DNA of 41,520 bases from a virus: positions 1 to 41,520 of the IMG/VR virus record IMGVR_UViG_3300042539_000316; one strand, given 5' to 3'. The position numbers were made by a program, and so were the translations under genes. The notes below the pieces were generated by a model. The model worked only from the letters and a program-made list of their open reading frames with translations, was not told the origin of the DNA and made no database searches. Below, in pieces: positions 4,481 to 41,520 of the stretch (position 1 is its first letter; each line of letters starts with the position of its first letter).

Positions 4481-4627
4481 ATGTATGAAGACAAGACAGT
4501 AGAAGAGTTGTATGCATTGGCTAACGATGCAGAAGACTTGGCTCATGGTTTGTTCGCTAAAGCCGTGAGCCTTCGGGCTGAAGCCAAACGCAAGCAACAG
4601 GCACTGATAGACGAAGGGAAATCATGA
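4481..4627 (+). CDS. Hypothetical early protein
   Basis: Encodes 48 residues predicted to form one or two helices, with alanines and alternating charge (ELYALANDAEDLAHG). GAAAGGAGAA lies upstream. The gene overlaps the Gp88-like gene by ATGA. It could be a partner of that protein; function unknown. Confidence 0.68.
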   Translation: MYEDKTVEELYALANDAEDLAHGLFAKAVSLRAEAKRKQQALIDEGKS

Positions 4628-5331
4628 CGAAACTCAAGCGGTCTAATGACCGCAAGGTAACCAACCTAGCAACACCGAATGGTAAGCGGTCAGCAATTGC
4701 TAACACGTTCGGTCTGCCAAGTGGCAAGCAATACTCATGCCCTTATGCAACTAGTATCTGCGAGAAGATTTGCTACGCAGGTAAGTTAGAGAAGATGTAT
4801 ACCTCAGTTCGTGAAGTCTTACTTCACAACTGGAATGCACTTCGCAACGCTAACAAGTATGACATGTGGGCAATGCTCGACACCATGCTTATCGAATTCA
4901 AAACTGAATGCGATACCAAAGGTATCGAGAAACTATTCCGTATCCACTGGGACGGCGACTTCTTCAACGCCGATTACACATGGGCATGGAAGATAGCAAT
5001 AGAAAATAATCCAGACATCCAGTTCTGGGTGTATACACGCAACCCTGACGCAGCTCGTGCGTTACGTAACATTCCCAACCTCTCGCTGTATTACTCTGCA
5101 GATGCAGAGAACTGGGAGTTCGCACCGCAAGGTGTGAAGGTTGCATACTTAGGCAACACCTTTGGTGATGCCAAGCAAGCCATGCTAGCAATGACAGGCA
5201 AGCCTGCTGCTGCATGTCCCGAACAACTCAAGCGCATCCCACTCATCTCCGAAAAGGGTGGAGCCTGTGCGGTATGCCGTCTATGTATAGATGGTAAGTC
5301 CGACATTCGATTCAGTATCTCAAAGAGATAG
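4624..5331 (+). CDS. Gp88-family protein, cysteine-rich
   Basis: Encodes 235 residues resembling the 'gene product 88' family of actinobacteriophages. Near the N-terminus is CPYATSICEKICYAGK (C39, C46, C50) and near the C-terminus a second cluster GGACAVCRLCIDGK, together suited to bind an iron-sulfur cluster or zinc. The central part has aromatic motifs (IHWDGDFFNADYTWAW, FWVYTRNPD) recalling TIM-barrel radical-enzyme folds. The biochemical role is unknown to me. Start couples to the upstream gene (ATGA). Confidence 0.82.
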   Translation: MTKLKRSNDRKVTNLATPNGKRSAIANTFGLPSGKQYSCPYATSICEKICYAGKLEKMYTSVREVLLHNWNALRNANKYDMWAMLDTMLIEFKTECDTKGIEKLFRIHWDGDFFNADYTWAWKIAIENNPDIQFWVYTRNPDAARALRNIPNLSLYYSADAENWEFAPQGVKVAYLGNTFGDAKQAMLAMTGKPAAACPEQLKRIPLISEKGGACAVCRLCIDGKSDIRFSISKR

Positions 5332-6391: not shown

Positions 6392-7360
6392 ATGACAACA
6401 ACACGCAGAATGTCAGCAAATATCGCTGGCTCCGCAGTAACCGCTACATCCGCACAGGATGCAGCACAACAGGCTGGTCTGGACTGGCACGTATCACTGG
6501 CTGAACTAGAAGCACTAGCAGTCAGTGACAATGGAGTCAGTAGACTCAAGGTTCCAGACAGGTTCGCTACTATCCGTACCAACAAGGATGGTGAGCAGGC
6601 AGCGCTCGGCACTGTCGGCACACGATACAAGGTGTTCCAGAATGGAGAGATGTTCTCCGCACTGGATGCACTAGTTGATTCAGGTGAAGCACGATACGCC
6701 AACGCAGGTGAACTGCGTGGCGGTGCTCAAGTCTGGATGCTCTTGGAGTTACCAAGAGAGGTCAAGATTGCTAGCGACCCACATGCTGCATACCTACTAG
6801 CTCGAACATCACACGATGGTTCATGCTCACTAGGTGTAACGCCAGTAGTCAACCGACTCTTCTGCTCCAACCAAATCAGTGGCATCTTCCGTAAGGATTG
6901 CAAGTATTCCTTGCAACATACGACCAATGCCAGACTGCAGGTAGAGCAGATGCGTACGATGCTCAGCGTAATCTACACAGGTATCGAGTCATACGAAACC
7001 ATCGCTGACAAGTTACTCAATGACCCAGTCAATGACTATCAAGTAGAAGGAATGTTCCGCAGAATGTGGACGCTACCATCTACTATCGAGAAGACACCAT
7101 ACAACAAACTCAGCACTGGCGAAAGACGTACCTACAATCGTGTTACAGATGCAAGGAACACAGCGTTCAACATCTACAAACACAGCAGCACACAGGAGAA
7201 CATCCGAGGAACTGCGTTCGGTGCGTTCCAAGCAATCGTTGAGTACCTAGACTGGAACTCACACAAGTCCGAGGCTACCCGTGCAGAACGAGTAATCTCA
7301 GGCAAGTACGACAAGCTCAAGAGCAAGGCTCTTGATGTAGTCCAACTAATAGGGAGGTAA
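6392..7360 (+). CDS. DUF932 phage/plasmid-like protein
   Basis: Encodes 322 residues resembling the DUF932 (TIGR03299) family, large early proteins common in phages and plasmids. Typical features are the central GTRYKVFQNGEMF, GAQVWMLLELP and VTPVVNRLFCSNQ stretches and a helical C-terminal third. The role is not established; links to replication or anti-restriction have been suggested only by context. GAAAGGA lies upstream after an unusual CCAACC repeat. It is the largest gene of the block. Confidence 0.85.
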   Translation: MTTTRRMSANIAGSAVTATSAQDAAQQAGLDWHVSLAELEALAVSDNGVSRLKVPDRFATIRTNKDGEQAALGTVGTRYKVFQNGEMFSALDALVDSGEARYANAGELRGGAQVWMLLELPREVKIASDPHAAYLLARTSHDGSCSLGVTPVVNRLFCSNQISGIFRKDCKYSLQHTTNARLQVEQMRTMLSVIYTGIESYETIADKLLNDPVNDYQVEGMFRRMWTLPSTIEKTPYNKLSTGERRTYNRVTDARNTAFNIYKHSSTQENIRGTAFGAFQAIVEYLDWNSHKSEATRAERVISGKYDKLKSKALDVVQLIGR

Positions 7361-10016: not shown

Positions 10017-10299
10017 GCGACTTCACCAAATATTCTACAGACTTAAGAAGTAAGTCTGGGTTATCTTCCATAAGACCTAGCGCACGGTTGTGATTAGAAC
10101 AGAGTAAGCCACGCACCTTGCCAGTCTTGTGGTCGTGGTCTATATCAAGAGCTCTCTTATCTTCGGGTAATTTTCCACAGATATAACAGCCACCTTTTTG
10201 AGAAGCAAGCATCTGTTCGTATTCTTCCACGCTAATTCCGTACATACGGATGCGAGAGATACGTTGCTCTTCGTAAGTTTTATTTCTGTTTCTCGGCAT
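10009..10299 (-). CDS. Recombination endonuclease VII family
   Basis: Encodes 96 residues. C38-x2-C41 and C67-x2-H70 form the zinc site, and DIDHDHKTGKVRGLLC (about 52-67) is the catalytic HNH-type core of T4 endonuclease VII, which resolves branched DNA before packaging. Length is short compared with T4 (157) but usual for actinophage members. An alternative GTG at 10317 adds six residues; ATG at 10299 is preferred, though its ribosome site is weak. Confidence 0.86.
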   Translation of the reverse strand: MPRNRNKTYEEQRISRIRMYGISVEEYEQMLASQKGGCYICGKLPEDKRALDIDHDHKTGKVRGLLCSNHNRALGLMEDNPDLLLKSVEYLVKSHG

Positions 10300-10609
10300 A
10301 TTTAGCCCACACTCCACGCTGTACCATTAGTGCGATGATTGCATAGTTCGCCAAGTCAACGAATGAATCTTCTAAGGATTCATTATTCGGTGTAACCTTT
10401 TTATATATCAGGTTCTTCAACCGCTCTAACTTGTCGGACATACGTACCATCAGCCCATTGGTTGCGCCACCTGGCGCATGCCAGATGTTGTATGGACCAT
10501 AGTCGATTTGTTTCTTAACCAGAATTGCTAATAGCTCATCATAAATTTTTTGTGCATCCTCTTCAAACTGGAGGATAGTTGTTTCTTCTGACACGGAGCC
10601 CCTATTCAT
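10280..10609 (-). CDS. DUF1599 / nucleotide modification associated domain 1 protein
   Basis: Encodes up to 109 residues. KKQIDYGPYN, VRMSDKLERLKNL and SLEDSFVDLANYAI match the family known as Nmad1/DUF1599, found near phage nucleotide-modification genes and proposed to act in nucleotide metabolism. The ATG at 10609 has no ribosome site; GTG at 10594 has AGGGG upstream and may be the true start (104 residues). Overlaps endonuclease VII by 20 bases. Confidence 0.8.
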   Translation of the reverse strand: MNRGSVSEETTILQFEEDAQKIYDELLAILVKKQIDYGPYNIWHAPGGATNGLMVRMSDKLERLKNLIYKKVTPNNESLEDSFVDLANYAIIALMVQRGVWAKYAEKQK

Positions 10610-11249
10610 CTAATGCGCTAATTAATTTAGTTAACGCTTGAGCTCCTTGGTCTGCAATTATACTATTGATATCGCTACCAGGCGGTAGCGACACGCGGAT
10701 AGCTTGAGGTATTGCATCTTGTAATCTACGGGCTAGTTCCTGCCCTGGGTTGGTTCCATCTTCCTTAACATCGTTATCAGTAGCTATAACAACGCGACCA
10801 ATCCCGTCAAAACAACGGCTAAAATAAGGCTTCCAAGCATTAACACCAGCCACAGCGACAGCAGGATGCCCAGCAAGAGTAGAACTAATCGCATCAATCT
10901 CTCCCTCTACTATTAGAACTTCGTGTACAGCATGAAGGATAGCATTGACATTGTATAGATGGTGCTTCTGACCAGTAGGTATCATGTACTTAGGGTCACC
11001 GTCGTCTACCCTACGAAACTTAAACCCGACCACACCAGCCTCGGTTATGTATGGGATGGAGAGGTGATGCCTGAGTCTGTCCTCATGACCAGGGGCTGGG
11101 TCAATAACATAACCAAGCATAAACTTCTCAGCTCCGTCTAAAATCCCACGCTTAACTAGGTATGCCTCAGCAGGAGAACCAATTAAATTTTTATGATAGC
11201 TCTGGGCAGCCTTAGTCCAAAGGTCTATAAGTTTCTGATTAGGTTTCAC
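10602..11249 (-). CDS. DNA primase, TOPRIM catalytic part (split gene)
   Basis: Encodes 215 residues. VEGEIDAISS (E115, E117) and ATDND (D158, D160) are the metal-binding motifs of the TOPRIM domain of DnaG-like primases, which make RNA primers. The preceding part matches the primase N-terminal subdomain (LSIPYITEAGVVGFKFRR). There is no zinc finger; that is encoded by a separate gene at 11776-12105, with a peptidase gene between. GTG start with AGGAGAAG upstream, overlapping the previous stop (GTGA). Confidence 0.87.
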   Translation of the reverse strand: MKPNQKLIDLWTKAAQSYHKNLIGSPAEAYLVKRGILDGAEKFMLGYVIDPAPGHEDRLRHHLSIPYITEAGVVGFKFRRVDDGDPKYMIPTGQKHHLYNVNAILHAVHEVLIVEGEIDAISSTLAGHPAVAVAGVNAWKPYFSRCFDGIGRVVIATDNDVKEDGTNPGQELARRLQDAIPQAIRVSLPPGSDINSIIADQGAQALTKLISALDE

Positions 11250-11779
11250 TTCTTCTCCTGTCTATGTACCGAGAAAGGAGGTGCAGTATACACATCATTC
11301 TTAGCTGCAATCTGCATTGCTTTCTTCCAGTTAGCACCAGAAGCGACAGCACCTATGGCATAGGCAGACCCAGAGCCCAAGCCATAGATGCCATCATCGC
11401 GTAGGAAGACTGAGTACGTATCATCTATCTCGTAGATGGTTCCGTTCACAGCCATTAAAAAAAGAAACTCGTATTCGTCTGCCTTCTCATCATGAACGAA
11501 TCCGTTATCACGTAAACATTCACGCATGCTTGGTATGACAGTTGTAATCATGAAGTGGTAAACATCTTTGACGTTGGCTGGTATAGCAGGTGGCTTCCAT
11601 ATATGTTGGACGATGTCGCATGGCTGAGTAGTACCAGCACCAGCGATAAGGAACTTGCCACGTTTAGTAATCTTAGTTGTAATCGGATGTGAGTATGGTC
11701 TACCTTTTTCAGTAGTGGTTCTACTATCCACTGCAATGATGCAGCCATCATGTTCTTGTATACCAAGGATAGTTGTCAA
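11246..11779 (-). CDS. Proteasome beta / HslV-like Ntn peptidase
   Basis: Encodes 177 residues with the Ntn-hydrolase layout of proteasome beta and HslV proteases. The chain begins M-TTILGIQ; loss of Met exposes T2 as the nucleophile. D18 in AVDSR and K36 in TTKIT match the partner Asp and Lys of the family, and GLGSGSAYAIGA (133-144) is the conserved Ser-containing loop. So the active site looks intact without a propeptide. TTG start with GAGAG upstream. It sits between the two halves of the primase. No ATPase partner is seen; it might work alone, with host Mpa/ARC, or as an Anbu-like particle. Confidence 0.82.
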   Translation of the reverse strand: MTTILGIQEHDGCIIAVDSRTTTEKGRPYSHPITTKITKRGKFLIAGAGTTQPCDIVQHIWKPPAIPANVKDVYHFMITTVIPSMRECLRDNGFVHDEKADEYEFLFLMAVNGTIYEIDDTYSVFLRDDGIYGLGSGSAYAIGAVASGANWKKAMQIAAKNDVYTAPPFSVHRQEKK

Positions 11780-12105
11780 CGTAATGCTCTCAATCTAGGT
11801 GGAGTCCAACGACTGCTGGACTTACGTCCACGCTTCGGAGCTTGGCTCTTCGACTCCTTACCTATGTTCTTCTCTGCCCATTTACGAGCATCTGAGTATG
11901 TCAGGTTCTCACGAGCCATGACAATCTGTATGCCAGCGCCACGTCCGTTACACGCATAACATACCCAGACACCCTTGTCAGAGTTAACCGAGGCAGACTT
12001 ATGTGAGTCGTCATGTACAGGACAATGGATTGATTTGTCCCCACCTAACGGTAGGTCTAATCCATAGTGACGAAACACTGCCTCAAGGAACTCTGTCTGA
12101 TTCAT
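11776..12105 (-). CDS. DNA primase zinc-finger (CHC2) part
   Basis: Encodes 109 residues. CPVH (C28, H31) and CYAC (C49, C52), within HCPVHDDSHKSASVN and WVCYACNGRG, are the CHC2-type zinc finger that lets DnaG primases recognise template DNA. After this comes a helical arm and a basic tail (KRGRKSSSRW). A normal primase joins this to TOPRIM in one chain; here it is separate. Overlaps the peptidase gene by 4 bases. Confidence 0.85.
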   Translation of the reverse strand: MNQTEFLEAVFRHYGLDLPLGGDKSIHCPVHDDSHKSASVNSDKGVWVCYACNGRGAGIQIVMARENLTYSDARKWAEKNIGKESKSQAPKRGRKSSSRWTPPRLRALR

Positions 12106-12108
12106 TGC

Positions 12109-12489
12109 CTAATACCAGTTCCTTTCCTGGTGGAACCTGTACGCATCGCACCAAGTTTCATATCGATGTAGCACATACTTGTGTGCTTCTTCTGTCTGTT
12201 TGAGTAATGACCAATTGGGTTTTCCCCATAGTAACTGCCATACTCCACGTGCTCCACTCGATTTGTTGAGCGAGTCTACGTTGTATCGGCTCTCCTTGTA
12301 CGCAATCTTCAGCGCACACTGAACCTCTTTCGTATCGGTTGTGACCTGCAGTAACGTCAGCTTCACACGTTCCCTCTTGTCGGTGACTACCGACAATTGT
12401 TTCTCGTATGTTATTAGTGGCGTTAGCGCCGAACTCGGTGATACTAATTGTATCAAGGAGAACAGCAAGGTCGTTATTGCTAACCGCAT
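12109..12489 (-). CDS. Secreted lysozyme-like / transglycosylase-like protein
   Basis: Encodes 126 residues. Residues 1-21 form a signal peptide ending SSA. YKESRYNVDSLNKSSGARGVWQL (about 64-86) matches lytic transglycosylase motifs, with E66 as the likely catalytic acid. The domain is shorter than usual (about 70 residues after the motif start), so it may be a minimal enzyme. AGAGGT is 4 bases before the ATG. It lies in the replication block, away from the lysis genes at 18.5-19.5 kb, so it could act early or in virion entry. Confidence 0.75.
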   Translation of the reverse strand: MRLAITTLLFSLIQLVSPSSALTPLITYEKQLSVVTDKRERVKLTLLQVTTDTKEVQCALKIAYKESRYNVDSLNKSSGARGVWQLLWGKPNWSLLKQTEEAHKYVLHRYETWCDAYRFHQERNWY

Positions 12490-12527
12490 AGTTACCTCTT
12501 TTCATTTTATGGAGCTCTGTCACAGCT

Positions 12528-12881
12528 TCACTGATGTCCATTGTAACCTGCCTGTTTAAGCAGATTCACCCAGAGTTCCGCAGGCATTACTGCATACGAC
12601 TCTGAGATATTAGATGTGCCACGCTTTTTAATTAGCACAACTCCTGTTTCTGCATCCGCATGTGTCATCTCATCTTGTAGTTCTCTGAGATAGCCAGGGA
12701 TATCTATTCGTTTTTCATTCTTACATTCTATTACAACACCATCAATGCCGTCTATATCACCGACATCATCATGCCGACCCGCACCATAAGCTCGCTCAGC
12801 ACATGGATAGCCCATGCTGACAAGCCACTTGACTACATCACGTTCGTATTGTGAGCCTTTGCGTTTGGATGGCGTTGACAT
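12528..12881 (-). CDS. Holliday-junction-resolvase-like PD-(D/E)XK nuclease
   Basis: Encodes 117 residues. The motifs E13, D39-x2-D42 (DVGDIDG) and IECK (E52, K54) form a PD-(D/E)XK active site as in archaeal-type Holliday junction resolvases and related small nucleases. It probably resolves recombination or replication intermediates together with the endonuclease VII protein. Stop overlaps the start of a possible out-of-frame gene. Role is inferred from fold. Confidence 0.78.
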   Translation of the reverse strand: MSTPSKRKGSQYERDVVKWLVSMGYPCAERAYGAGRHDDVGDIDGIDGVVIECKNEKRIDIPGYLRELQDEMTHADAETGVVLIKKRGTSNISESYAVMPAELWVNLLKQAGYNGHQ

Positions 12882-13019
12882 TTACCACTCAATGCTAAAC
12901 CAAAAGATAGCTAAGTCTATATTCAAACTAAACCTATCTATACTTATTCCAACTCCAAACCTAGTAACACTATAGCCTGCACTAAATGAACCTAATTGTA
13001 TTGACCAAAATTTTTTCAT
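12882..13019 (-). CDS. Small hypothetical protein
   Basis: Encodes 45 residues of aromatic, strand-like composition (MKKFWSIQLGSF at the start, AIFWFSIEW at the end). It overlaps the WhiB gene stop as ATGA and fills the interval to the nuclease gene. No ribosome site beyond coupling is clear. Function unknown. Confidence 0.6.
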   Translation of the reverse strand: MKKFWSIQLGSFSAGYSVTRFGVGISIDRFSLNIDLAIFWFSIEW

Positions 13020-13282
13020 ACGTAGTCCTTTGTTAGTATCTCTTCGAGTATTATATTTCTTTTCCTGCGGATTAATTTTCTTTCCACTGGGGTCTTACCT
13101 CCCCACATTCCATGACTCTCGTGGCGTACCGCCCATTCAAGACATTCAATCTTAACCACGCACCCTTCACATATCTTACGAGCAAAGCTATATATGTCGA
13201 CCCCGCTTCCCTTATCTTCTGGGAAAAAAAATTCGACACCTATTTCTCTACATAACCCCTTGGTTAAGTCTGGTAATTGCAT
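13016..13282 (-). CDS. whiB: WhiB-family transcription regulator
   Basis: Encodes 88 residues. C11, C38, C41 and C47 (ICEGCVVKIEC) are the four ligands of the [4Fe-4S] cluster, followed by the family signature GMWGG (58-62) and a basic tail (KLIRRKR) that binds DNA. WhiB proteins act with the primary sigma factor and are restricted to Actinobacteria and their phages; phage members can repress host whiB genes. This is the strongest host clue. ATG at 13282 has GAGGA upstream. Confidence 0.92.
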   Translation of the reverse strand: MQLPDLTKGLCREIGVEFFFPEDKGSGVDIYSFARKICEGCVVKIECLEWAVRHESHGMWGGKTPVERKLIRRKRNIILEEILTKDYV

Positions 13283-13778
13283 TGAGTAATTCCTCAATCT
13301 TATTCAAATCGTTGGCATCCATTACCAACCGAGTGCCATAACCATAATCATATAGACTATGTTTGGCAAGGAATTCTTCTCGTGTTATCCATCCTTTTAT
13401 ATCGAAATAACTTTCGACATGAGGCAATTGTTTATCACCAAAGAACTGGACGAGAACCGCGATGTCAGATACAAATAGTTCTGACGAATTAAATATCAGT
13501 GTGGCTAAGGAAGAAGTCTTAACCTGTATAGTTTTTCCCAATACAGTAAAGAGGTCGTGTCCGTTATCCCCAGATGGCGAAATCGTTTCGTCCAGTGGAC
13601 ACCCAAGTATGCGAGCACATGCCACTTCACCCAAGCGCCCCATAAGATTAACCGAATACGACGAATTATTCTTATCAAACTTTTTATCCACCACCTGAAA
13701 TTGTTTTTTATTTTCTCTTACCCTGTGGATAAACCGCAAGGCATCCATCGTTTCATCTTCAGTTAGATGAACAATCAT
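13248..13778 (-). CDS. PD-(D/E)XK-like nuclease
   Basis: Encodes 176 residues. GRLGEVACARILG provides a glutamate, and GHDLFTVLGKTIQVKTSS gives the D...QVK pair of a PD-(D/E)XK active site with Q in place of the usual second acidic residue. The family includes phage and restriction-type nucleases. ATG at 13778 overlaps the upstream stop (ATGA); GTG at 13784 is possible. Overlaps whiB by about 35 bases. Confidence 0.72.
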   Translation of the reverse strand: MIVHLTEDETMDALRFIHRVRENKKQFQVVDKKFDKNNSSYSVNLMGRLGEVACARILGCPLDETISPSGDNGHDLFTVLGKTIQVKTSSLATLIFNSSELFVSDIAVLVQFFGDKQLPHVESYFDIKGWITREEFLAKHSLYDYGYGTRLVMDANDLNKIEELLNAITRLNQGVM

Positions 13779-37470: not shown

Positions 37471-38970
37471 CTACTTCTTTTTAGGAATCTTTACTGTTGT
37501 TCCTGACCAAATCATGTTGCCCTGCTTGTACTTAGCGTTCTTAGCAAACTTTTTGTTTGCAGCTCTAATTTCAGCAAGTGAAACTCCACTAGCTTTAGCA
37601 ATACCTGAAAGAGTATCGCCTTTCTTTACAACATATACGTTGCCAGGTGTTACTTTGGTTGTTGAACCACCAGCACCAGATGTGGTTTTTGAACCACCAG
37701 CGCTAGATTGAACTTTACCTGTTGACATTGCATAGTTACCTAATGGTCCAGTCTTTGTGGAACCTTTAGCTGAGCCTTTAGCTTTCTTTTGTTTGTTAAT
37801 CAACTTATTAAGTTCATCCATACGTTCGCGACGTGTTTGACCAACAGCACCAAAGGTTGCCAAGTTGGCAAGATTTGATAAGTTTCCGCCAGTTTGTTTT
37901 CTAAGTTGATTTAGGCGACCACCTGCTGTTGCGGTTGGAGATTTCTTTCCTTGAAGTTTTGCTAATTTTGTTTCTAAACGGTCAATTTCTTTTATATCTT
38001 TAAAAGTAGAACCCTTAGCAAGCGATACAAGTTCAGCGCCTGCTGCAGTTGCTGCAGCGCCAATTGCAAACTTCTTACCAAACCTAGCTAATCCTGCACC
38101 TCTGATGGGTTTCTTGCCTGTTGCAGCAGCAGGCTTTGGCTTTGAACCTGTAGTAGCTACGGTTCCTTTTGCACGTGTTGCCACGGATGTTCCTGGTTTT
38201 GGAGTTGCTGTAGTTGTTTTAGCTACAGTGGTTCCTGATTTCTTCTGTACAAATTTAGCTTTCTTAGCACCTTTGCTAGCTTTCTCAGGCTGTACATCAG
38301 TAATGCTATATACAGGAGTAGCTTTACCTTTTGGTGTTTGCGCTTTTGAAAGTTCTGACATTTTCTTATCAGCAGCTCCAGATGCAACATCATATTTTTT
38401 ACCTTGAATTAAAACTTCGCCTTTAGAACCTGCTTTACTAGCAGACCAATTCTTGCGTTCTGCTGGTGTCATCTTTGCCCATTTAGCTTTATTAGCAGCA
38501 GACTTCTCGGCGCGGGTTTGCTTCTTAGGTTTTACCTTTGCAACATCTTCTCTAATTTGTTCTGCTAAACCAGGCTTTGGCTTTGCTGTTGTTCCAGCAG
38601 TTCCTCCAACAACAGCCTTCTTGACTGGTGTTTTCTTTTTAGTTAAAGACTTTTTCTTGGTTGGCTTCTTGCCATCTCCATCTTCGGTTCCTTCACGGAA
38701 CTTACGCATAGCTTCTGCACGTTCACGGGCAATACGTTCTTTAGCTGTTTCGGTAGGTCGAGAATAAACTTTATTACCTTTATCATCGGTAATATAGCCT
38801 CTCTTAGCTTCATCCTTAATTTCTCTAAGAATTTTAGCGTCGTCAGCAGAATACTTGACCGTAGGGTCTTTTACTTTGGCTTTTACTTTGCCAGGAAACG
38901 CTGCTTTGGCAGCGGGTTTTGCTGCTGCTCTAGCTTGGCGAAATTTCCTGGGATACTTTTTTTTCGCCAT
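37471..38970 (-). CDS. Lysine-rich structural protein with C-terminal LysM domain
   Basis: Encodes 499 residues. The first 300 residues are Lys/Ala/Thr/Pro-rich and resemble histone-H1-type tails (KKKSLTKKKTPVKKA near 105). A hydrophobic Ala-rich segment (FAIGAAATAAGAELVSLA) follows, then a charged helix, and a LysM domain (YVVKKGDTLSGIAKASGVSL) at the C-terminus. It could bind DNA inside the head and peptidoglycan on entry. AAGGA is upstream. Confidence 0.75.
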   Translation of the reverse strand: MAKKKYPRKFRQARAAAKPAAKAAFPGKVKAKVKDPTVKYSADDAKILREIKDEAKRGYITDDKGNKVYSRPTETAKERIARERAEAMRKFREGTEDGDGKKPTKKKSLTKKKTPVKKAVVGGTAGTTAKPKPGLAEQIREDVAKVKPKKQTRAEKSAANKAKWAKMTPAERKNWSASKAGSKGEVLIQGKKYDVASGAADKKMSELSKAQTPKGKATPVYSITDVQPEKASKGAKKAKFVQKKSGTTVAKTTTATPKPGTSVATRAKGTVATTGSKPKPAAATGKKPIRGAGLARFGKKFAIGAAATAAGAELVSLAKGSTFKDIKEIDRLETKLAKLQGKKSPTATAGGRLNQLRKQTGGNLSNLANLATFGAVGQTRRERMDELNKLINKQKKAKGSAKGSTKTGPLGNYAMSTGKVQSSAGGSKTTSGAGGSTTKVTPGNVYVVKKGDTLSGIAKASGVSLAEIRAANKKFAKNAKYKQGNMIWSGTTVKIPKKK

Positions 38971-39140: not shown

Positions 39141-40904
39141 TTATGCTGGTATTTGGCGAGTGACTCTCGCTGCTAGATTTGGATTTCCTCCACCAGTAAG
39201 ACCTGCTAGCAGTTCTTGCATTGCTGGTCTGCCTTGCTGCATTGGTGGCATCTCGCCATCCATACCCATAGGCTCTTCTGGTTGCCCCATCTCTGGAGCT
39301 TCAGGTGTTTGTGGTGCTGGTTTTGGCTTAAACGCTTTAGCAACTGCATCTTCTAGCGGTGTGCCTCTTTTACGTTCATCAATAACGGTTGCCATTTTTT
39401 CAACAACTGACATTGGGTCTTGTCCTTGCGTTACCATCATTGGTATTGCTTGAGCAAGTTGTGAGATGGATGCTTTTAATGAATCACGCATTTCTTCAAT
39501 GTCGATTGCTCGCTCTTCTTCTCCAGCATTGAGCGAAATCGGTAAGTTGCGACGTAGCATCCCGCGAGAGATTAGCTTGTCGCCTCGTGCTTGTAGACCC
39601 CATACCAATGCACGGTTAGGGTCAAGACCTGCCATCAAACCGTATTCAACTGTTACTCCATAGTTTCCGTTGATGTCGTTTGATGGTTTGTATTTTAATC
39701 TGTATGGAACGCCATTGGCTGTTGCAGATACTTCACGAGTAACATCAGTAAAGTATGTTTCATCTGTAGCGAATGCAATGGATATTGCTTCGCCAATTGC
39801 TTCACCAAGGATTGACTGAACAACTTTAATCTGTGAGTCAAATCCAGCCATAAGTGCTTTAACACCTTGACCAGTAACGATAGAACCTTCTGCTTGACCA
39901 ACACGTGATTGTGGGAAGCGGGTTGCTAATCTCATTTCATCTGCTAAAACATTGTTTTCAGCAAATGCAAATTGCGGTACGTCTAGGTTTACACGACGTA
40001 TTTTCTCAGGACTGTTCGAACGAATGACCGAATCAGGACCAATGGAAAGCTGAGTAACATCATTGGGAAGAGCAAGAGGAGCTTCAACAGACTTTTGAAC
40101 AGCCTCCATAGTGAGCAACGCAAGTCGGGCTTTCGCTGCGTACACTGGCAGAACATCGTCGAATGCACCTCTTGTTTCGCCATCAAGCGAAGGACGCTGA
40201 GCAATCGCAATCGGGACTCTACCGATTTTGTTTGGTGTTTCGGCAAGTACAAGACCTCCGCGTTCTGGAATAAACATTACAGTGCGTTTCTTATCAGTCC
40301 ATCTAACTACTTCGATAAGTTGGTTTGAATCTGCACGATTACCAAATGCACTGCTAATTAAAATCTTATCTGCTACTTCTGGAAACTTAGCTGCTAAGTC
40401 ACCAGCTTTGCGATAGTAAGCACGACAATAAACAGATACTTCTCCGAATCTATCTACGTCATAATATGCACCCATGGAATTCTCGACATGGATGTGTGGT
40501 CTTTTTTCTTTGAAGTTAGGTTCTACTCTAAGTATGCAGAATCCGTAAGTTCCTAACTGGTCTGCGCCACGCAGAAGCTCTATACCAAGTTTGGATGCTG
40601 CTACATAGTAGTTAGCAATCTTAGTTCTTTTATCAGATTTGGTACGCTGGTTATCATCAAGAGATGAATCTCCAGCAGCTGTTATGGTAGGTAGTACACC
40701 TGCCTGTTCAGAAACATCACGAGCAACAACATCAATGAGGTTGGCAATGATAGGCTTGGACCAGTTTCCTTCAGGAAACAATCCTCTAAATACTTGGTCG
40801 GCATTTCCAGAACGGACCAATGCAACCTCGCGCATGCGTTTATCGCGCTCGGAATTACGAGTCTTTATTTGCTCGTATGCTTGTACAAGTTCTCTCATTA
40901 TCAC
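39141..40904 (-). CDS. Portal protein
   Basis: Encodes 587 residues. It directly follows terL. The sequence includes FPEGNWSKPIIANLIDVVARD near residue 45, a GTYGFCILRVEP strand, and a long C-terminal helical region followed by a Pro/Met/Gln-rich tail. These fit the phage portal ring through which DNA is pumped. GTG at 40904 overlaps the terminase stop; ATG at 40898 is equally possible. Confidence 0.85.
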   Translation of the reverse strand: MIMRELVQAYEQIKTRNSERDKRMREVALVRSGNADQVFRGLFPEGNWSKPIIANLIDVVARDVSEQAGVLPTITAAGDSSLDDNQRTKSDKRTKIANYYVAASKLGIELLRGADQLGTYGFCILRVEPNFKEKRPHIHVENSMGAYYDVDRFGEVSVYCRAYYRKAGDLAAKFPEVADKILISSAFGNRADSNQLIEVVRWTDKKRTVMFIPERGGLVLAETPNKIGRVPIAIAQRPSLDGETRGAFDDVLPVYAAKARLALLTMEAVQKSVEAPLALPNDVTQLSIGPDSVIRSNSPEKIRRVNLDVPQFAFAENNVLADEMRLATRFPQSRVGQAEGSIVTGQGVKALMAGFDSQIKVVQSILGEAIGEAISIAFATDETYFTDVTREVSATANGVPYRLKYKPSNDINGNYGVTVEYGLMAGLDPNRALVWGLQARGDKLISRGMLRRNLPISLNAGEEERAIDIEEMRDSLKASISQLAQAIPMMVTQGQDPMSVVEKMATVIDERKRGTPLEDAVAKAFKPKPAPQTPEAPEMGQPEEPMGMDGEMPPMQQGRPAMQELLAGLTGGGNPNLAARVTRQIPA

Positions 40905-41520
40905 AATCTCGCTATTCGCTGGGAGGCAGCTAAATCATCTAAGTTAATTATGTATCTGTCCTCTATTGCTTTTTGTGGGGTAAATTCATTCTTTAAGAAA
41001 TTTGGTATACCTGAAGATGTTAACAAAACATCACGGGCTACAATCTCACAGAACCAGAGCGCCATTACAGCGTCCATCTTAAGTTTCTTACCTTGAACCC
41101 CTGGTTGCCAAACAACCAATTGCTCTATTAGTTTCTTTACATGTTCGTTTCGTGAAGAGTCTGGTAACTCAATCATATTATCGGCAGCATGCTTTAAGTT
41201 GTTATTGTTGCCATCACGTTTAGTAACGGTTCCGAATAACGGAGCCAGAGAAGCTACACCAAACTCTGGGTCTTGTTTATTATTACCTGTGTAGTGTGGG
41301 CGGTATGCAATACCGCGAGTTGCGAGGAAGTTTCTAATTTCCTCGTCTTGGGTTAGGAAAAGCTGAAATGCGTTGGATTCAACGATGACAGTATGAGGCT
41401 TGTAAGCATCTGTCCATTCTCGAATTAGAGAGCGAATCGCTGCAGGTGTGGGGCTGCTCATGACGTAAACGTCCATGACATAGCGCTTTTGTGTTCTGCG
41501 GTCGACTGCATAAGCTACTG
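40901..41520 (-). CDS. terL: Terminase large subunit, C-terminal nuclease part
   Basis: This is the remainder of the terminase gene begun at 1397; positions 41394-41520 duplicate 1-127. It holds the rest of the RNase H-like nuclease domain. Counting from the TTG start, the metal-binding acidics are E471 in VIVESNAF and D573 in KMDAVMALW, which join D415 from the first segment. The gene stops at 40901-40903 and overlaps the portal start by a few bases (GTGA), so the two are translationally coupled. It appears truncated only because the circular map was opened inside it. No frameshift or missing catalytic residue was seen. Confidence 0.92.
   Translation of the reverse strand, partial: VAYAVDRRTQKRYVMDVYVMSSPTPAAIRSLIREWTDAYKPHTVIVESNAFQLFLTQDEEIRNFLATRGIAYRPHYTGNNKQDPEFGVASLAPLFGTVTKRDGNNNNLKHAADNMIELPDSSRNEHVKKLIEQLVVWQPGVQGKKLKMDAVMALWFCEIVARDVLLTSSGIPNFLKNEFTPQKAIEDRYIINLDDLAASQRIARL
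41394..41520. repeat. Right copy of 127-bp end overlap
   Basis: Exact copy of positions 1-127. Removing it leaves a unique circle of 41,393 bp. Confidence 0.93.

Follow-up and report, generated by a model that had tools for sequence, protein, structure and literature searches.

Proteasome homologues encoded by phages have already been catalogued, and PPH and AAH were named with phage members, AAH being found in no Actinobacteria-specific phages (Fuchs 2021, PMC8665760); beyond that work, a search of the literature for a phage HslV or proteasome that had been tested gave nothing, and no report of function was found. BPH is thought to act without an unfoldase, a property that has been linked to its long acidic pore loop (Fuchs 2021, PMC8665760). 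The family of the gene described here is itself known, both as PHROG 1040, in which the annotations "protease", "HslV" and "Ntn hydrolase" occur in Microbacterium, Arthrobacter, Vibrio and other phages, and among the group I proteasome homologues (Fuchs 2021). In a Rhodococcus host that possesses a proteasome, the transcripts for the alpha subunit, the beta subunit and the ATPase increase during infection by phage WC1 (PMC10986025).

The stretch of DNA analyzed (the window) is the whole of virus record IMGVR_UViG_3300042539_000316, 41,520 bases in length. The gene for the large terminase is divided between its two ends (3–1397 and 40901–41518), which probably means a near-complete map that is circular or circularly permuted. 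On the minus strand, at 11246–11779, an ORF with a TTG start encodes a putative HslV/BPH-like peptidase of the proteasome family, 177 aa long. Its neighbors on the same strand are, upstream, the gene for a primase zinc-finger protein (11776–12105; PHROG 360, E 7.8e-24) and, downstream, that for a primase TOPRIM protein (10602–11249; PHROG 47, E 1.1e-32; PHROG 849, E 1.9e-32); the peptidase start and the zinc-finger stop have four nucleotides in common (TTGA), as do the peptidase stop and the TOPRIM start (GTGA). The minus strand also carries the genes for the portal protein (39141–40904; PHROG 104, E 3.5e-35), for a WhiB-like regulator, a marker of an actinobacterial host (13016–13297; PF02467, E 9.2e-14), and for a Lys-rich LysM protein of 499 aa (37471–38970; PF01476, E 1.4e-9), which, judged by position relative to the cultured phage LanE43-AprF5 (hereafter F5), occupies the place after the portal in this genome.

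Some further features of the window can be mentioned. Two ORFs at 12109–12489 and 12158–12541 overlap on one strand in different frames; the former weakly matches SLT lysozyme and has its counterpart in F5, so the latter is probably not a gene. Close to the primase, 10280–10609 encodes a DUF1599 "nucleotide modification associated domain 1" protein with 59% identity in F5, and a block on the plus strand contains genes of the GP88 and DUF932 families (4624–5331 and 6392–7360), whose function is unassigned.

The gene, its active site and its predicted fold

The ORF at 11246–11779 is a genuine gene and evolves under purifying selection, with omega values of 0.05–0.29 for pairs within the peptidase family and of 0.05–0.16 for pairs that include the protein of this record; the observation of a peptidase in the original prediction, which was silent on the strand, is confirmed. 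The match to the PHROG 1040 "peptidase HslV family" (E 2.5e-26) covers residues 1–176, that to Pfam PF00227 (16.5 bits, under the cut-off of 22.4) is suggestive when taken alone, and a family profile of 22 relatives finds BPH as its best match in the PDB (1.4e-10), and HslV as well. The viral loci compared number 163, namely 160 from two scans of viral contigs and three isolates. In every one of them the protein opens with M-T-T, the start codon being ATG in 142, GTG in 13 and TTG in 8; the TTG of this record is backed by an ATG at the same codon in close homologues. This constant opening, together with a further in-frame start upstream in only six loci, indicates a peptidase made without a propeptide, as had been claimed. 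When whole bacterial genomes were scanned for close relatives of the peptidase, none was found, neither in prophages nor on chromosomes.

Among 112 distinct phage proteins, T2, T3, D18, K36, G41 and G49, the last being the oxyanion residue, are invariant, residue 136 is S or T, and the second S of the GSGS loop (138) is unconserved. The alignment thus bears out the triad T2/D18/K36 that had been proposed by eye, while in the GSGS loop proposed with it the first serine is kept as S or T and the second is not kept. With respect to the strands of the model, D18 and K36 stand where proteasomes have them, and the alignment with BPH makes T2, D18, K36 and G49 the equivalents of the N-terminal Thr, D17, K33 and G47 of proteasome-like Ntn hydrolases; the geometry of T2, D18 and K36 is taken from this alignment and these strand positions, and not from distances in the model. 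Motifs strongly conserved within the phage family itself are W61-x-P63-P64 and Q174.

The AlphaFold2 model (pLDDT 91.3, pTM 0.87) has its lowest-confidence segment at residues 21–40 (pLDDT 72–81), which form part of the active-site region. The order of strands and helices is that of the proteasome family, with the helix pairs H1/H2 and H3/H4 present, H1 at 51–60, H2 at 73–91 and a strand at 170–175 as the final element. A Foldseek search of the PDB gave 960 matches at E < 0.001, the first 50 of which are all proteasome, HslV or BPH structures; HslV and BPH rank best, BPH reaching the top TM-score (0.77–0.78) and HslV 0.68. In BFVD, 43 models of viral proteins pass the same limit of E < 0.001. 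The Ntn-hydrolase layout of the original prediction is therefore recovered in the model, the structure comparison placing it closest to BPH and HslV, with no H5 of the Anbu type. The loop that leads from H2 to the next strand (92–104) is long and acidic across the family, with a median of 15 aa and a net charge of −4; the same loop has 19 aa and −6 in BPH, and 9 aa and +1 in E. coli HslV.

On this modeled fold the peptidase is classed as an HslV/BPH-like group I proteasome homologue, and several narrower assignments were considered and set aside. Membership of HslV itself is contradicted by scores far below the cut-offs (NF003964, 19.4 vs 137 bits; TIGR03692, 18.1 vs 157.75) and by the lack of an HslU partner, the phage having no AAA_2 match and the acI genomes discussed below no HslU over cut-off; the proteasome equivalog models likewise matched far under cut-off. 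The actinobacterial PrcB would require a better match to PF00227 than 16.5 vs 22.4 bits, a propeptide, and an alpha subunit, which is present neither in the phage nor in the acI genomes discussed below. Helices H1 and H2 are both found in this protein of 177 aa, whereas PPH (Fuchs 2021) has about 140 residues and no H2; the model also lacks the long C-terminal H5 with which Anbu makes its coiled-coil contacts, as well as the two-helix S3/S4 insertion of connectase, residues 1–50 being free of helices.

Similar proteins of about 180 aa, which we take to be AAH, are encoded on plasmids of Rhizobium and Streptomyces, and in a tree of 52 proteins the lineage of this record lies near their clade, but outside it. 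One related proteasome-like protein is encoded on plasmid B of Sinorhizobium americanum (L219, 4001–4546) within a nitrogen-fixation gene cluster, in the order rpoN, nifQ, peptidase, iron-sulfur accessory protein, nifS and homocitrate synthase.

The likely host and the movement of the gene

The presence of the WhiB gene and of some 30 proteins in common with the cultured "Ca. Planktophila" phage F5 (PMC10202952) places this virus, on sequence grounds, among the actinophages of freshwater Nanopelagicales (acI), which are thus the likely host group; for this particular virus the host is deduced from these genes. An 18-base pattern of acI 16S rRNA, for which the papers searched gave no confirmation, led to 15 acI/Nanopelagicales genomes, among them the complete genomes of P. 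lacus, P. versatilis and IMCC strains, once unrelated chance matches had been left out. In these 15 genomes there is no match at all to PF00227, and neither ARC/Mpa nor HslU over cut-off; the matches to the HslU and ARC models that fall under threshold belong to frames whose length suggests ClpX-like and FtsH-like proteins. The same PF00227 search matched in 28 of 60 Actinomycetota, and so does detect actinobacterial proteasomes. Two of the three roles originally proposed, the hijacking of the host Mpa/ARC and the replacement of a host subunit, are therefore unlikely for this host group, in which there would be no proteasome, HslV, HslU or ARC to take over.

Within the phages, the gene turned up in 13 related contigs, including every one checked of at least 33 kb, and was missing from a fourteenth, a 29-kb piece; it is thus a core gene of this lineage of freshwater actinophages. 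Its position, in contrast, is not fixed. In 86 of the 163 loci, including the isolates LanE43-AprE7 (hereafter E7) and F5, its immediate upstream neighbor is the portal gene. Another 54 loci, close to this record, have it behind the zinc-finger gene and, where the contig extends that far, ahead of TOPRIM; in others it comes after TOPRIM or the helicase. These counts vary with the choice of seeds, of which there were two. Loci elsewhere in the family have it near genes of nucleotide metabolism and replication (ThyX, RNR, thymidylate synthase, DNA ligase). On well-supported branches of the tree of 52 proteins, the gene must have changed place twice or more, and the location between the primase genes is a trait of one lineage. 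That the peptidase is tied to the function of the primase can be rejected, because F5 has the zinc-finger frame directly against that of TOPRIM, with the peptidase away from both, after the portal. The original suggestion that its place in the primase would cause it to be made together with the replication proteins may hold, then, for this lineage only, and not for E7, F5 and the 84 other loci with the gene after the portal.

Alleles seem to have been exchanged as well. In loci L076 and L080, which belong to the post-portal group, the portals are 88% identical to that of E7, yet the adjoining peptidases are only 39–42% identical to that of E7, and 51–53% identical to that of this record. Such similar portals beside such divergent peptidases suggest that one allele was replaced by another at the same place. 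In other words, the gene is kept while its location and its allele change. As a separate observation, one contig of 82,688 bases (G084, of locus L294), twice the usual length, contains two copies of the peptidase 42 kb apart, and is perhaps the assembly of a tandem dimer or of two related phages joined together.

Possible roles of the peptidase

The reading that we favor, with somewhat better than even confidence, is that of a catalytically competent, stand-alone threonine peptidase of the BPH/HslV type, with no dedicated unfoldase, which would supply a proteolysis that the host lacks. Methionine aminopeptidases remove Met ahead of Thr, and the host enzyme would take off Met1 in this way and expose the nucleophile Thr2, which would act together with D18 and K36. 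The subunits would then assemble into a ring, most likely the double ring known from BPH, the entry to which would be restricted by the acidic pore loop (92–104), and during infection the complex would cut small, unfolded or partly unfolded polypeptides independently of the ATPases of the host. This would be a proteolytic capacity new to a streamlined acI/Nanopelagicales cell, from which the phage could benefit either through the removal of host or defense proteins or through the release of amino acids.

The argument for this reading lies in the modeled fold with BPH and HslV as its nearest solved relatives, the invariant catalytic residues and M-T-T opening, the low omega, the long acidic loop like that of BPH, the lack of PF00227 members, HslU and ARC in the acI genomes, the regular presence of the gene in related contigs, and the lack of an unfoldase gene. 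No AAA+ unfoldase was recognized in the record, in E7 or in F5, where the lone AAA match in each is a helicase (DnaB-like in this record, from its position and its PHROG match), and the record holds no other member of PF00227, alpha subunit included, so that the absence of both partners noted in the original prediction is upheld. Of its three roles, assembly alone would fit best, although with BPH, and not Anbu, as the nearest solved relative. Against the stand-alone peptidase counts the fact that peptidases of the 20S type are usually weak on folded proteins when they stand alone; so do the lower confidence of the model at residues 21–40 and a host deduced from WhiB and shared genes. Moreover, chromosomal relatives are likewise without a partner ATPase, and so the lack of one in the phage is compatible with the use of ClpX, ClpC or FtsH-like proteins of the host.

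Such a partnership, in which the peptidase would redirect a host ATPase (ClpX, ClpC or an FtsH-like one, ARC elsewhere) as HslV works with HslU, is nevertheless judged unlikely. The fold is HslV-like, and ATPases resembling ClpX and FtsH are retained in the acI genomes, if sub-threshold matches are named by frame length; however, neither HslU nor ARC passes the cut-off in the 15 genomes, the acidic pore loop resembles that of BPH and not that of HslV, and no docking of ClpX or FtsH on rings of the HslV type is known. The position after the portal raises instead the question of a virion protease, one which would trim scaffold or internal proteins during morphogenesis, or be packaged and ejected with the DNA. 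This position is held in more than half of the loci (86/163), across peptidases down to about 40% identity with that of E7, and in both isolates E7 and F5, and no other head-maturation protease was recognized among the scanned structural proteins of this record. All the same we consider it a rather unlikely role, given that in this genome the gene is in the replication block and that the MCP, its sequence read by eye, has no obvious long N-terminal delta domain. An essential head-maturation protease in particular, considered on account of the post-portal position, loses weight with two phages: Streptomyces phage Immanuel3 has a homologous MCP (43%), portal (40%) and scaffold (28%), with further virion proteins also in common with this record, and no peptidase; and in Microbacterium phage WaterT the peptidase lies in the midst of small genes, while the portal is followed by the gene for another protein, a capsid maturation protease.

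It appears very unlikely that the active site serves site-specific processing or the ligation of peptides, in the manner of the monomeric connectase, which belongs to the same family and conserves the catalytic triad (PMC8665760). The motifs W61-x-P63-P64 and Q174, specific to the phage proteins and without an assigned role, would leave room for such an activity; but the helical insertion between S3 and S4 is missing, the helices H1–H4 that make the ring and double-ring contacts are present in the model, and the sequence profile is nearest to BPH. Finally, an inactive or dominant-negative remnant is extremely improbable: no evidence favoring it was found, and the catalytic residues are all invariant, the frame is intact and omega is well below 1.

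A broader proposal, which we regard as doubtful, would join several of these elements: a self-sufficient ring of the proteasome type in phages of hosts with neither proteasome nor HslUV, maintained as a core gene, moved between the vicinity of the portal and the replication block, with its alleles swapped, maybe packaged and ejected, and early-acting in either place. The form adjacent to the portal, if packaged and ejected, would then act at the start of infection, as in the other arrangement. The question of function can be tested, since cultured relatives (E7 and F5) and their host exist and the background of this type in acI is nil by sequence, and since a related phage of Streptomyces has the same virion module and manages without the peptidase. 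Were the enzyme active alone, a virus would be seen to introduce proteasome-type proteolysis into cells devoid of it.

Comparison with known systems

What is new here is the core status of the gene in a lineage of freshwater actinophages, the absence of a host counterpart, and a moving position accompanied by allele exchange. With PHROG 1040 the protein has in common the sequence family, the N-terminal Thr and the fold, the match being significant over most of its length; it differs in that the lineage of this record forms a branch of its own (support 98/99), marked by particular W-x-P-P and C-terminal Q motifs. The peptidases of the "Ca. Planktophila" phages E7 and F5 (OX376640, OX376641) are 37% identical over the full length, but their gene is found directly after the portal, and here between the primase genes. 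AAH (Fuchs 2021) shares the group I type and the lack of a propeptide. HslV shares the fold, the residues Thr1/Asp17/Lys33 and a loop like IGSGG; it differs in its pore loop, which is longer and acidic in the phage peptidase, and in its partner HslU, which was searched for and is absent from the phage and from the likely host group. BPH (5OVS, 5OVU) comes closest, with the acidic pore loop, the lack of an unfoldase and the best TM-score among solved structures (0.77) in common, although the identity is about 20% and BPH is a chromosomal protein of bacteria.
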